Shown here piece by piece: positions 46,622 to 49,799 of a stretch of DNA of 64,000 nucleotides. A program made the position numbers and the translations under genes. This stretch comes from Paraburkholderia sp. IMGN_8 (GTDB taxonomy: Bacteria; Pseudomonadota; Gammaproteobacteria; Burkholderiales; Burkholderiaceae). How positions within the stretch are numbered: position 1 is the first letter of the stretch; each line of letters begins with the position of its first letter. The stretch lies in contig NZ_CP150900.1 of NCBI RefSeq assembly GCF_038050405.1, forward strand, positions 992,001 to 1,056,000, written 5' to 3'. A model generated the notes under the pieces. It made no database searches. It saw only the letters and a program-made list of their open reading frames with translations, and was not told where the DNA came from.

Positions 46622-47908
46622 TTAAGCATAAGCCGGACGATGCGCTTCGGCGCTCTCGCCGAGATAGCGGTGCGCCGACAGGTCGTCCGCCTTGATCGCC
46701 GGTTGCTTGCCCGACATCACGTCGGCCAGCAACTGACCCGAGCCGCACGACATCGTCCAGCCGAGCGTGCCGTGGCCCGTGTTCAGGAACAGGTTCGGCA
46801 CGGGCGTGCGGCCGACGATCGGCGTGCCGTCCGGCGTCATCGGGCGCAGGCCGGTCCAGAAGGTGGCCTTCGACGTATCGCCGCCGCCCGGGAACAGATC
46901 GTTCACGCAGAGCTCAAGCGTTTCGCGGCGCGCCTGGCGCAACGACTTGTCGAAGCCGACGATCTCCGCCATGCCGCCGACGCGAATCCGGTCGTCGAAA
47001 CGCGTGATCGCGATCTTGTAGGTTTCGTCGAGCACGGTCGACACCGGCGCCGCCGCCGCGTTGACGATCGGCGCGGTGATCGAATAACCCTTGAGCGGAT
47101 AGACCGGAATCTTCACGAGGCCGGACAGGAATTGGGTCGAGTACGAACCGAGCGCGACGACGAACGAATCCGCGCGCACCAGTTCGCTACCGCATTGCAC
47201 GCCGGCGATGCGGTCGCCCGCCATCGCGAGTGCATCGATCGGCGTGTTGTAGCGGAATTTGACGCCCAGTCGCTCGGCCAGCGCGGCGAGGCGCGTGGTG
47301 AACATCTGGCAGTCGCCGGTTTCGTCGCCCGGCAGACGCAGGCCGCCCGTCAGCTTGTGCGAGACCGCGGCGAGCGCCGGTTCGGCTTGAGCGAGTTCGG
47401 CGGCCGACAGCAGTTCGTACGGCACATTGGCGTCTTTCAGCACCGCGATATCTTTCGCGGCGCCGTCGAATTGTTGTTGCGTGCGGAACACCTGCAACGT
47501 GCCGCCGGTGCGGCCTTCGTACTGGATACCGGTGTCGGCGCGCAGCGCCTGCAGACAATCGCGGCTGTATTCGGCAAGGCGGACCATGCGGCCCTTGTTC
47601 ACCGCATAACGCGACTCCGTGCAGTTCTGCAGCATCTGCCACATCCACTGCAGCTGGAATTGCGTGCCGTCGAGGCGGATCGCCAGCGGGGCATGCTTCT
47701 GGAACATCCACTTGACCGCCTTCAGCGGCACGCCAGGCGCCGCCCACGGTGATGCATACCCCGGTGAAATCTGGCCGGCGTTGGCAAAACTGGTTTCGAG
47801 CGCCGGGCCGGCCTCGCGATCGATCACGGTCACGTCATGACCCGCACGCGCCAGATAATAAGCACTCGTCACCCCGACGACGCCACTGCCCAAAACGACG
47901 ACTCGCAT
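46622..47908 (-). CDS. dadA: D-amino acid dehydrogenase small subunit
   Basis: This 428-residue membrane-associated FAD enzyme oxidises D-alanine and other D-amino acids to keto acids, feeding electrons to quinone. The FAD site is [18 protein letters not shown] (from residue 6). [19 protein letters not shown] is the DadA signature, and the C-terminal [39 protein letters not shown] closes the FAD domain. The ATG at 47908 is family-typical; a longer in-frame start at 47971 is rejected. It is divergent from an Lrp-type regulator, which is the usual activator/repressor pairing for dad genes. Confidence 0.96.
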
Positions 47909-47944
47909 AGTTGCTCCGAAAAGATTTGAGGGCGGTGTGTTCGT

Positions 47945-48017
47945 CGATTCGTTTGGATTCGTTCGATTCACGAGGTGTAATGCGGTTCGCCCAGTGTTAA
48001 CCGCTATACTATTAACA
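47945..48017. promoter_or_regulatory. dadA / lrp divergent control region with phased repeats
   Basis: GATTCGTT occurs at 47946-47953 and again at 47956-47963, one helical turn apart, with a third partial copy (CGATTC) after it. TGTTAA (47995-48000) and TTAACA (48012-48017) form an inverted repeat around TATACT (48005-48010), a probable -10 for the plus-strand regulator. Phased repeats and such palindromes suit binding by an octameric Lrp-type protein. Confidence 0.5.
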
Positions 48018-48066: not shown

Positions 48067-48567
48067 ATGCGTACACAGCGCCACCCGGTTCGCGCCCTCG
48101 ACAAACTCGATCACAGGATCCTGCGGCTGCTGCAGGAGGACGGCCGCATGGCGATGAAAGACCTCGCCGAGCAGGTCGGGCTGTCGGTAACGCCGTGCAT
48201 TGAGCGTGTCAAGCGCATGGAGCGTGACGGCGTGATCACCGGCTATCACGCGCGCGTGAATCCGGCGGAATTGGGCGCGGCGTTGCTGGTGTTCGTCGAA
48301 ATCACGCTCGATCACAAAAGCGGCAACATGTTCGACCAGTTCCGCCGCGAGGTGCAGAAGATCCCAGAGGTGCTGGAGTGCCACCTCGTCTCGGGCGATT
48401 TCGACTATCTGATCAAGGCGCGTATCGGCGAAATGGCCGACTACCGGAAGCTGCTGGGCGACATCCTGCTGCAACTGCCCGGCGCGGTGCAGTCGAAGAG
48501 CTATGTGGTGATGGAAGAGATCAAGGAAACGCTGACCATCGCGGTCGGTGATCAAGCGGCGCGGTAG
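48067..48567 (+). CDS. Lrp/AsnC-family transcriptional regulator
   Basis: This 166-residue regulator has an N-terminal HTH (LDKLDHRILRLLQEDGRMAMKDLAEQVGLSVTPCIERVKRMERDGVI). A C-terminal RAM/ACT-like domain (residues about 70-155) senses amino acids. The length and the LECHLVSGDFDYLIKARIGEMADYRKLL segment are those of true Lrp rather than AsnC. Its position, divergent from dadA across 158 bases with phased repeats, points to control of D-amino acid catabolism, probably alanine or leucine responsive; this is inference from the pairing seen in other Proteobacteria. Confidence 0.93.
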   Translation: MRTQRHPVRALDKLDHRILRLLQEDGRMAMKDLAEQVGLSVTPCIERVKRMERDGVITGYHARVNPAELGAALLVFVEITLDHKSGNMFDQFRREVQKIPEVLECHLVSGDFDYLIKARIGEMADYRKLLGDILLQLPGAVQSKSYVVMEEIKETLTIAVGDQAAR

Positions 48568-48580
48568 GGTGAGGCTGGGC

Positions 48581-48615
48581 TCGACAAACGGCGTAAACAC
48601 TGTATATTTATACAG
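48581..48615 (+). promoter_or_regulatory. LexA (SOS) box over the promoter of the radical SAM gene
   Basis: CTGTATATTTATACAG (48600-48615) matches the CTGT-N8-ACAG LexA consensus, with a palindromic A/T core differing at one central base from the ideal form. TCGACA (48581-48586) and TATATT (48603-48608) with a 16-base spacer form a good sigma-70 promoter whose -10 lies inside the box, the standard arrangement for SOS repression. Confidence 0.85.
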
Positions 48616-48665
48616 GTGTTCTGCGACGTTTTTGTTTGCCGTCTTTGTTTTTGCCCGCTCGAGCC

Positions 48666-49799
48666 GTGACCCATCCCGACACCGAATTTCCGATCGCTCC
48701 GCCCGCGCCTCGCAAAGGGCGCGGTGCGGTGACGAACCTGCAGGGCCGCTATGAAGTCGACCAGCGCGAAGCGGTGGACGACGGCTGGCTGCCGTCCAGC
48801 GAGGATGACGAGGGGTCGAAGGTCTTGCGTACCCAGGTATTCGAAGAGCAGGCCAAGACCATTCTCACCCGCAATGCGTCGCCGGATATCCCGTTTAGCG
48901 TGTCGCTGAATCCGTATCGCGGCTGTGAACACGGCTGTATATATTGTTTCGCGCGGCCCACGCATAGTTATTTAGGTCTGTCGCCCGGGCTCGATTTCGA
49001 AAGCCGTATCTATGCGAAGGTCAATGCGCCGGAATTGCTCGAGCGCGAACTGTCGAAGAAGTCCTATGTGCCGGAGCCGATTGCTCTAGGCGTTAATACA
49101 GACGCATGGCAGCCCACCGAACGCGACTTGCGCCTCACGCGGCGGGTGATCGAGGTGCTCAGCGAGCGCGGCCAACCGTTTGCGGCGATCACCAAATCAT
49201 CGCTGATCGAGCGCGATATCGATCTGCTCGCGCCGATGGCGGCGCGCGGGCAGTTCATGGCGGCGATCACGATCACCACGCTGGACGCGGACGTCGCCCG
49301 CACGCTCGAACCGCGAGCGGCCACGCCGTCGCGCCGCCTGCGCACGATTCGTACTTTGAGCGAGGCAGGGATTCCGGTGGGCGTGAGCATCGCGCCGGTG
49401 ATTCCGTTCGTCACCGAACCGGACATGGAGCGCGTGCTGGAAGCCTGTGCGGAGGCTGGAGCAAGCAATGCGAGCTATATCGTGCTGCGCTTGCCGTGGG
49501 AAGTCGCGCCGCTATTCAAGGATTGGCTTGCGGCGCATTTTCCCGATCGTGCGGATCGGGTGATGAGTCGCGTGCGCGATATGCGGGGCGGGAAGGACTA
49601 CGACTCGTCGTTCGCGCATCGAATGAAGGGCGAGGGCTTGTGGGCGGATCTGCTCAAGCAGCGGTTCCACAAAGCGGTGCGCCGTCTTGGTCTGAACGAG
49701 CGAGATCGTGGGATCCTGGATATGTCGCACTTTCGCCGTATGGAGCCGTCGCGCCCGGCCCACCCGGCGCGCGACGATCCGCAACTCGATCTTTTTTAG
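48666..49799 (+). CDS. SOS-controlled PA0069-family radical SAM protein
   Basis: This 377-residue radical SAM enzyme has the cluster motif Cys87-x3-Cys91-x2-Cys94 in YRGCEHGCIYCFARPTHSYL. It belongs to the PA0069 / SplB-related COG1533 family, whose namesake spore photoproduct lyase repairs a thymine lesion with the same chemistry. The C-terminus (GKDYDSSFAHRMKGEGLWADLLKQRF) is characteristic of this family. No function has been shown that I know of. The start GTG at 48666 is favoured over TTG at 48636 because it is 50 bases beyond the LexA box and avoids a hydrophobic extension; neither has a strong Shine-Dalgarno. SOS control suggests a role in DNA repair or damage tolerance. Confidence 0.9.
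   Translation: MTHPDTEFPIAPPAPRKGRGAVTNLQGRYEVDQREAVDDGWLPSSEDDEGSKVLRTQVFEEQAKTILTRNASPDIPFSVSLNPYRGCEHGCIYCFARPTHSYLGLSPGLDFESRIYAKVNAPELLERELSKKSYVPEPIALGVNTDAWQPTERDLRLTRRVIEVLSERGQPFAAITKSSLIERDIDLLAPMAARGQFMAAITITTLDADVARTLEPRAATPSRRLRTIRTLSEAGIPVGVSIAPVIPFVTEPDMERVLEACAEAGASNASYIVLRLPWEVAPLFKDWLAAHFPDRADRVMSRVRDMRGGKDYDSSFAHRMKGEGLWADLLKQRFHKAVRRLGLNERDRGILDMSHFRRMEPSRPAHPARDDPQLDLF

Follow-up and report, generated by a model that had tools for sequence, protein, structure and literature searches.

A PA0069-family radical SAM gene under predicted LexA control in Paraburkholderia, with a candidate sliding-clamp-binding motif at the end of its product

The window analyzed here is a stretch of 64,000 nucleotides from Paraburkholderia sp. 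IMGN_8 (contig NZ_CP150900.1, positions 992,001 to 1,056,000), and our subject is a gene within it that encodes a radical S-adenosylmethionine (SAM) protein of the PA0069 family. The gene is preceded by a LexA-type operator that overlaps a promoter, and its product ends in a short motif of the type bound by the bacterial sliding clamp (beta-clamp, DnaN). The following features are referred to below.

48581..48586, + strand: -35-like hexamer TCGACA (promoter scan, and hexamer spacing around orthologous boxes)
48600..48615, + strand: LexA-type operator CTGTATATTTATACAG (pattern CTGTN8ACAG and matrix score; the same type precedes the genome's own lexA and recA)
48603..48608, + strand: -10 hexamer TATATT, within the LexA-type box (promoter scan)
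48666..49799, + strand: PA0069-family radical SAM gene, GTG start, 377 amino acids (NF033668, 473.8 bits against a cut-off of 360; PF04055)
48924..48947, + strand: CEHGCIYC, the [4Fe-4S]/SAM motif, with Cys 87, 91, and 94, counting the GTG as residue 1 (column conservation)
49089..49121, + strand: GVNTDAWQPTE, residues 142 to 152, with invariant T145, D146, Q149, and P150 (conservation)
49782..49796, + strand: C-terminal QLDLF, residues 373 to 377, a motif of the beta-clamp-binding type (alignment, and the definition in PMC11139829)

A score above the NF033668 cut-off, together with the CxxxCxxC motif, places the product in the PA0069 family, which we take to belong to COG1533. The cluster cysteines are kept in 190/190, 191/191, and 191/191 of the sequences aligned at these columns. 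Many NF033668 database records carry the name “DNA repair photolyase”; the FAD-binding domain of photolyases and cryptochromes (PF03441) is absent from the protein and, at an E value of 1e-3, from its own genome. An alternative upstream start is possible at a TTG (48636), and the GTG is favored by relatives whose alignments span the full query (100%). Of 299 genomes sampled across the phylum, 111 contain a family member scoring above the cut-off, and we found no reaction assigned to the family in the literature.

The initial annotation had placed a LexA-type box on the -10 element of a sigma-70 promoter, 50 bases before a CxxxCxxC gene, and this is borne out. The promoter-like sequence consists of TCGACA, a 16-bp spacer, and TATATT (10 of 12 consensus matches); between positions 47500 and 50800, three promoter-like sites are observed and 0.8 expected. 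The box covers the entire -10 hexamer and is separated by 50 bases from the GTG at 48666. The pattern CTGTN8ACAG occurs only once in the window (0.27 expected), and 22 of 100 shuffled windows contained it at least once. The bare pattern is thus nonsignificant and was discarded as proof, so the operator claim rests on the matrix score and the orthologues. Across the organism's 9.1-Mb genome (two contigs), the palindrome alone likewise means little, since it is found 62 times and a reversed control pattern 49 times. With a matrix built from nine boxes of the same genome, leaving out the site in question (training scores, 19.6 to 33.2), the operator obtains the top score in the 64 kb (29.5; runner-up, 8.0). 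This is comparable to the scores of the genome's own AT-rich boxes, of which two precede lexA and one precedes recA.

Conservation of the operator was assessed in orthologues from the same family, in which 85 of 120 genomes have a match (84 beside the window's own), and in those from the phylum sample, which added 108 genomes, three being already included and six below the family cut-off being excluded. Two same-family loci below the cut-off (L098 and L099) were kept as misses in the box counts, L098 lying at a contig end with its upstream region unreadable. A further miss (L022) was counted from a second, split copy and is not a fair test: contig C6 of its genome (G118) holds a full copy plus two pieces, covering model positions 70 to 336 and 1 to 70 and separated by about 47 kb, which looks like a second copy that was broken up.

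An exact CTGTN8ACAG lies within 350 bp of 60/84 same-family, 8/8 same-order, and 19/27 other same-class orthologues (87/119), and of 0/73 orthologues from other classes. Sites above the matrix threshold follow the same distribution (62/84, 6/8, 18/27, and 0/73, respectively) and occur in only 3 of 2,362 other windows from three same-class groups. Hexamers resembling TTGACA (at least five of six positions) start 18 to 21 bases before the 87 orthologous boxes 21 times, and none of the remaining offsets between 10 and 39 has more than two. For the 73 loci of other classes, an unbiased search for 4-gap-4 dyads returned GTTC-N7-GTTC as the top word, present within 250 bp of 64 loci (0.2 expected); within 350 bp it is found at 66/73 loci, against a background of 6/1,297. 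We take this word to be the alphaproteobacterial LexA box. That two unrelated repressor-box designs occur on one gene points to selection to keep it in the SOS response. The scan of orthologues in other Proteobacteria that the initial annotation had proposed thus turned up boxes of two designs, and its expectation of a link conserved across classes holds for 87/119 same-class and 66/73 other-class loci, with exceptions in the window's own family that are discussed below.

Among named genomes, one or the other box is present in 62 of 80 (the top 80 out of at least 596 candidates), including two named Pseudomonas loci (L300 and L301); the membership of PA0069 in the Pseudomonas LexA regulon, mentioned in the initial annotation, was not found in the literature searched. 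GAACN4GTTC lies upstream of two of three actinobacterial loci (Streptomyces and Nonomuraea, not Arthrobacter). A Xanthomonas-type LexA box is carried by four lexA genes of that kind, and precedes 1 of 12 orthologues checked that have no other box (L163). LexA repression and SOS induction of the PA0069-family gene are, on these sequence data, very likely.

The strongest clue to function, overlooked in the initial annotation, is the C-terminal clamp-type motif. Excerpts of PMC11139829 give the pattern bound by the beta-clamp as Q-phi-x-[L/M]-[F/L], alongside a six-residue form, and name QL(S/D)LF as the consensus of 2001; those of PMC4549789 describe it as often C-terminal in transposases and other clamp clients. 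The last conserved block in 193 aligned proteins contains Q373 (191/192) and L376 (190/191), on tails that vary in length and sequence and end in QLSLF, QLDLF, QMSLL, QGSLF, and similar forms. Motif counts cover 190 orthologues, two of the 192 loci having been dropped (L097, with an altered tail, and L099, truncated), and L168 was also dropped for the linker count. Within the last 12 residues, the published definition is matched by 138/190 orthologues and a looser form by 182/190; the window protein itself, with QLDLF, agrees with the published one. The pattern Q[LMG]xL[FL] is found in the last ten residues of 162/190 orthologues and of 0/908 neighboring open reading frames (at least 150 residues, mechanically called, some of which may not be genes). 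Between F356 and the motif runs a linker in which Pro, Ala, and Arg are abundant; its length ranges from 5 to 45 residues across the family, with a median of 8. The tail that carries the motif is predicted to be flexible, the final two blocks having mean pLDDT values of 54 and 55.

Similar endings are seen in the Rv2578c family of Actinomycetota (NF038135), a separate NCBIfam family for which the window protein scores 230.8 against a cut-off of 430 and whose six sampled members are 34 to 35% identical. A QLTLL-type motif is found at the C terminus in this family. In Streptomyces, 93 of 120 of its proteins have the clamp motif and QLTLI is the ending of 20 of the remaining 27, although these are close relatives and represent few independent events. 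The single Nonomuraea record (EQLRLL) agrees with the clamp definition; those of Gemmatirosa (QLSLGI, with Ile where the six-residue form needs Phe or Leu) and Arthrobacter (GQEPLF) are near but off it, and in single records of Paenibacillus and Nostoc relatives the motif was not found. Clostridial relatives were left out of the supporting evidence: among the matches listed, 114/120 have QLSFF or QLSIF as their exact ending, and they are near-identical and off the definition at position 4. The clamp-binding peptides of Pol II (QLGLF) and Pol V (QLNLF), as given in the same excerpts of PMC11139829, resemble the tail described here, although they belong to polymerases rather than to a radical SAM enzyme. 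Binding of DnaN by the QLDLF tail thus appears likely from the sequence. A literature search joining radical SAM enzymes and the sliding clamp found no link in titles and abstract openings, and the candidate clamp-binding motif as a trait of the PA0069 family would be what is new here.

Taken together, we lean toward an SOS-induced, clamp-tethered radical SAM enzyme whose target would be DNA at stalled forks and whose chemistry would differ from that of spore photoproduct lyase (SPL). DNA damage would lead to cleavage of LexA, which would leave the operator over the -10 element and allow transcription, a step strongly indicated by the sequence. The product, with its predicted TIM-barrel fold, would cleave SAM to a 5'-deoxyadenosyl radical, as its motif suggests, and the flexible tail ending in QLDLF would dock in the peptide pocket of DnaN, as the conserved motif suggests. 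Docking would take the enzyme to stalled forks and gaps, where the DNA is marked by the clamp and where, in the weakest step of the model, it would most likely reverse or alter a damaged base by radical chemistry and let polymerases pass. The conserved motif would thereby give the enzyme a place of work. Pol II and Pol V are under SOS control, and if clamp binding is true, the SOS response holds a clamp-borne radical enzyme beside clamp-borne polymerases. For the broader proposition, that the whole PA0069/Rv2578c (COG1533) SOS family is a sliding-clamp client, comprising the first clamp-tethered radical SAM enzymes and carrying out direct radical repair or by-pass at stalled forks without the SPL cysteine relay, we see the chances as evenly balanced.

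A DNA lesion as the substrate, rather than RNA, protein, or a nucleotide, seems rather likely to us. The alternative is that its damage-response substrate is RNA, a nucleotide, or a protein, with the clamp motif serving only for fork recruitment or for another partner. The modifiers of RNA and peptides RlmN, MiaB, and SuiB appear among the lower structural matches of the predicted fold, which would suit such a role, but the clamp motif and SOS control jointly point to work on DNA and Radical_SAM is the only Pfam domain found in the protein. We therefore regard a non-DNA substrate as unlikely.

Slightly less likely still is that the gene encodes an SPL orthologue under SOS control, repairing 5-thyminyl-5,6-dihydrothymine or a similar thymine dimer, as proposed under “splB/photoreactivation” in PMC3323433. 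The predicted structure does agree with the SPL fold: the five best Foldseek matches are SPL chains, as are the six top VIA rows, and SPL (4FHC type; PF20903, TIGR04070) is the closest solved fold. At the sequence level, a profile-profile comparison with SPL gives a probability of 88 and an E value of 3e-6 over only 94 columns in the C-terminal half, and one orthologue (L290) reaches TIGR04070 at an E value of 5e-4, with 19.1 bits against a cut-off of 400. In searches of the PDB, the family profile reaches SPL at E values of 0.6 to 1.1 over about 38 positions, and SPL is not among the matches of the single sequence up to an E value of 1. PF20903 has no match in the window protein or its genome, and TIGR04070 has none in the window protein at an E value of 1e-3. 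Sequence kinship to SPL was thus set aside, being weak in the PDB searches and limited to 94 columns in the profile comparison; of the relation to SplB claimed in the initial annotation, the fold stands, and the SPL profile and the hydrogen-donor cysteine do not.

The hydrogen-donor cysteines of SPL are of the C141 and C74 types, according to excerpts of PMC5368176. Of the alignment columns that the window protein occupies, the three for the cluster are alone in holding Cys in more than 60 of the 193 sequences; the next has 46/193 and the one nearest the active stretch 7/193, so neither donor type is present as a family trait. By eye, GVNTDAWQPTE matches the donor-Cys stretch FEAACTSD of SPL; because this placement was made by eye only, the argument for a missing donor rests on the lack of a widely conserved extra Cys. 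The SPL-type proteins compared (L310 to L312) are PF20903 members matching 4FHC (L310, E value of 5e-60), although L310 scores 281.9 bits on TIGR04070, below the cut-off of 400, and unlike the window protein they have no clamp motif. In three genomes (G147, G269, and G285), a PA0069 member coexists with a strong PF20903 protein (246 to 273 bits) that again ends without the motif, which speaks against the SPL-orthologue reading. Because the SPL donor cysteine is lacking, the clamp-tethered enzyme proposed here would need another route to quench the substrate radical, and we speculate that hydrogen is taken back from 5'-deoxyadenosine or passed via a tyrosine. The missing donor also warns against assaying a PA0069-family enzyme on spore photoproduct alone.

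That the C-terminal motif is instead a degradation tag clearing the protein after SOS fits its exactly C-terminal position in 161/186 motifs, but is most improbable given the residues past position 5 in the other 25 (such as QLRLFADE and QLSLFGD, about three of them in the six-residue form) and a variation that follows the clamp definition excerpted from PMC11139829.

Several observations weigh against a clamp-tethered SOS enzyme or against a LexA link kept everywhere. The published motif definition fails in 52/190 orthologues, and Gly, which it does not allow, occupies position 2 in 34/186 motifs. No repair gene was recognized by eye in the 25 largest clusters of neighboring genes (160 loci clustered) in the window's family, and a repair-operon reading was rejected on this basis. 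Operator and motif also dissociate, as many box-less same-family genomes keep a QGSLF-type tail. Finally, an exact box within 350 bp is missing at 24/84 same-family loci. Fifteen of these 24 genomes, belonging to three genera that may be Cupriavidus/Ralstonia-like, were rechecked, and all keep two CTGTN8ACAG boxes ahead of lexA, so there it is the PA0069 gene itself that is out of the regulon. In one genus (g24), all nine rechecked genomes lack the box, and another (g3) is mixed, with five rechecked genomes without it and four loci with it (L016, L017, L018, and L044). Loss of LexA was ruled out as the cause of missing boxes, since a search of 29 genomes (28 of the 39 without an exact box, plus G311, whose site fails the matrix) found lexA in 28, with 26 above the cut-off; 26 of 30 lexA loci were read.

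The SOS link itself is already known, having been predicted in 2012 and described as “core SOS” by 2021 in the literature. SOS control of splB was predicted in alpha- and betaproteobacteria, where the gene was read as a photolyase/SPL homologue (PMC3323433, excerpts); the beta set has twelve Burkholderia entries, including B. phytofirmans and B. xenovorans, and the excerpts do not single out the site holders among them. As in our case, a LexA box there precedes a radical SAM gene homologous to SplB, and the two are probably the same gene; it is called a photolyase there, whereas the window protein has neither the SPL profile nor the donor cysteine. In other papers, kin of the PA0069-family gene are counted with the core SOS genes (PMC8565304), a radical SAM protein is assigned to the core regulon of Gram-positive bacteria and also placed in Balneolaeota (PMC7739468), a Streptomyces radical SAM gene is listed with a LexA site (PMC9380542), SplB-like proteins are linked to ImuB-C operons (PMC3765255), and radical SAM genes of Acidovorax citrulli are mentioned as having SOS boxes (PMC6595937). 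The window protein shares with the PA0069 family its score, the three cluster cysteines, and the C-terminal Q..LF, and nothing sets it apart.

Upstream of the gene lie an Lrp-type regulator gene (48067 to 48567), which at 215.6 bits falls just short of the Lrp cut-off (233), and, in divergent orientation, a gene for D-amino acid dehydrogenase (46622 to 47971). By eye, genes like these two recur in the vicinity of PA0069 in part of the family. A codirectional gene follows within 60 bp in 28/160 loci. In 11/73 loci of other classes (e.g., L112), an rnhB-like (RNase HII) gene, named by eye, lies 3' on the same strand at a median gap of 48 bp. Carriage by phages or plasmids was considered and rejected: 11 phage records matched, none covering 80% of the query, along with two viral contigs, and of 77 plasmid-collection records, 27 cover at least 80% of the query, none at 60% identity or more.

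Elsewhere in the genome, LexA-type boxes are seen near three other genes. One lies at the 5' end of a FAN1/VRR-NUC-type nuclease gene (L108:2964-4748; box at C2:1758555), which is a probable further member of the SOS set. A gene for an SOS response associated peptidase (SRAP; L106:10190-11185) begins 400 bp past the box at C1:4331031, and a gene of the LigT/2'-5' RNA ligase family (L101:3258-3854) begins about 240 bp past that at C1:2052822; an RNA-ligase-type gene would be unusual within an SOS set. Among the matches listed, CTGTAGACGAAAACAG or its complement occurs five times (C1:302479, 471195, and 3243893; C2:381777 and 2175379), and these occurrences probably represent a repeat element, not SOS boxes.
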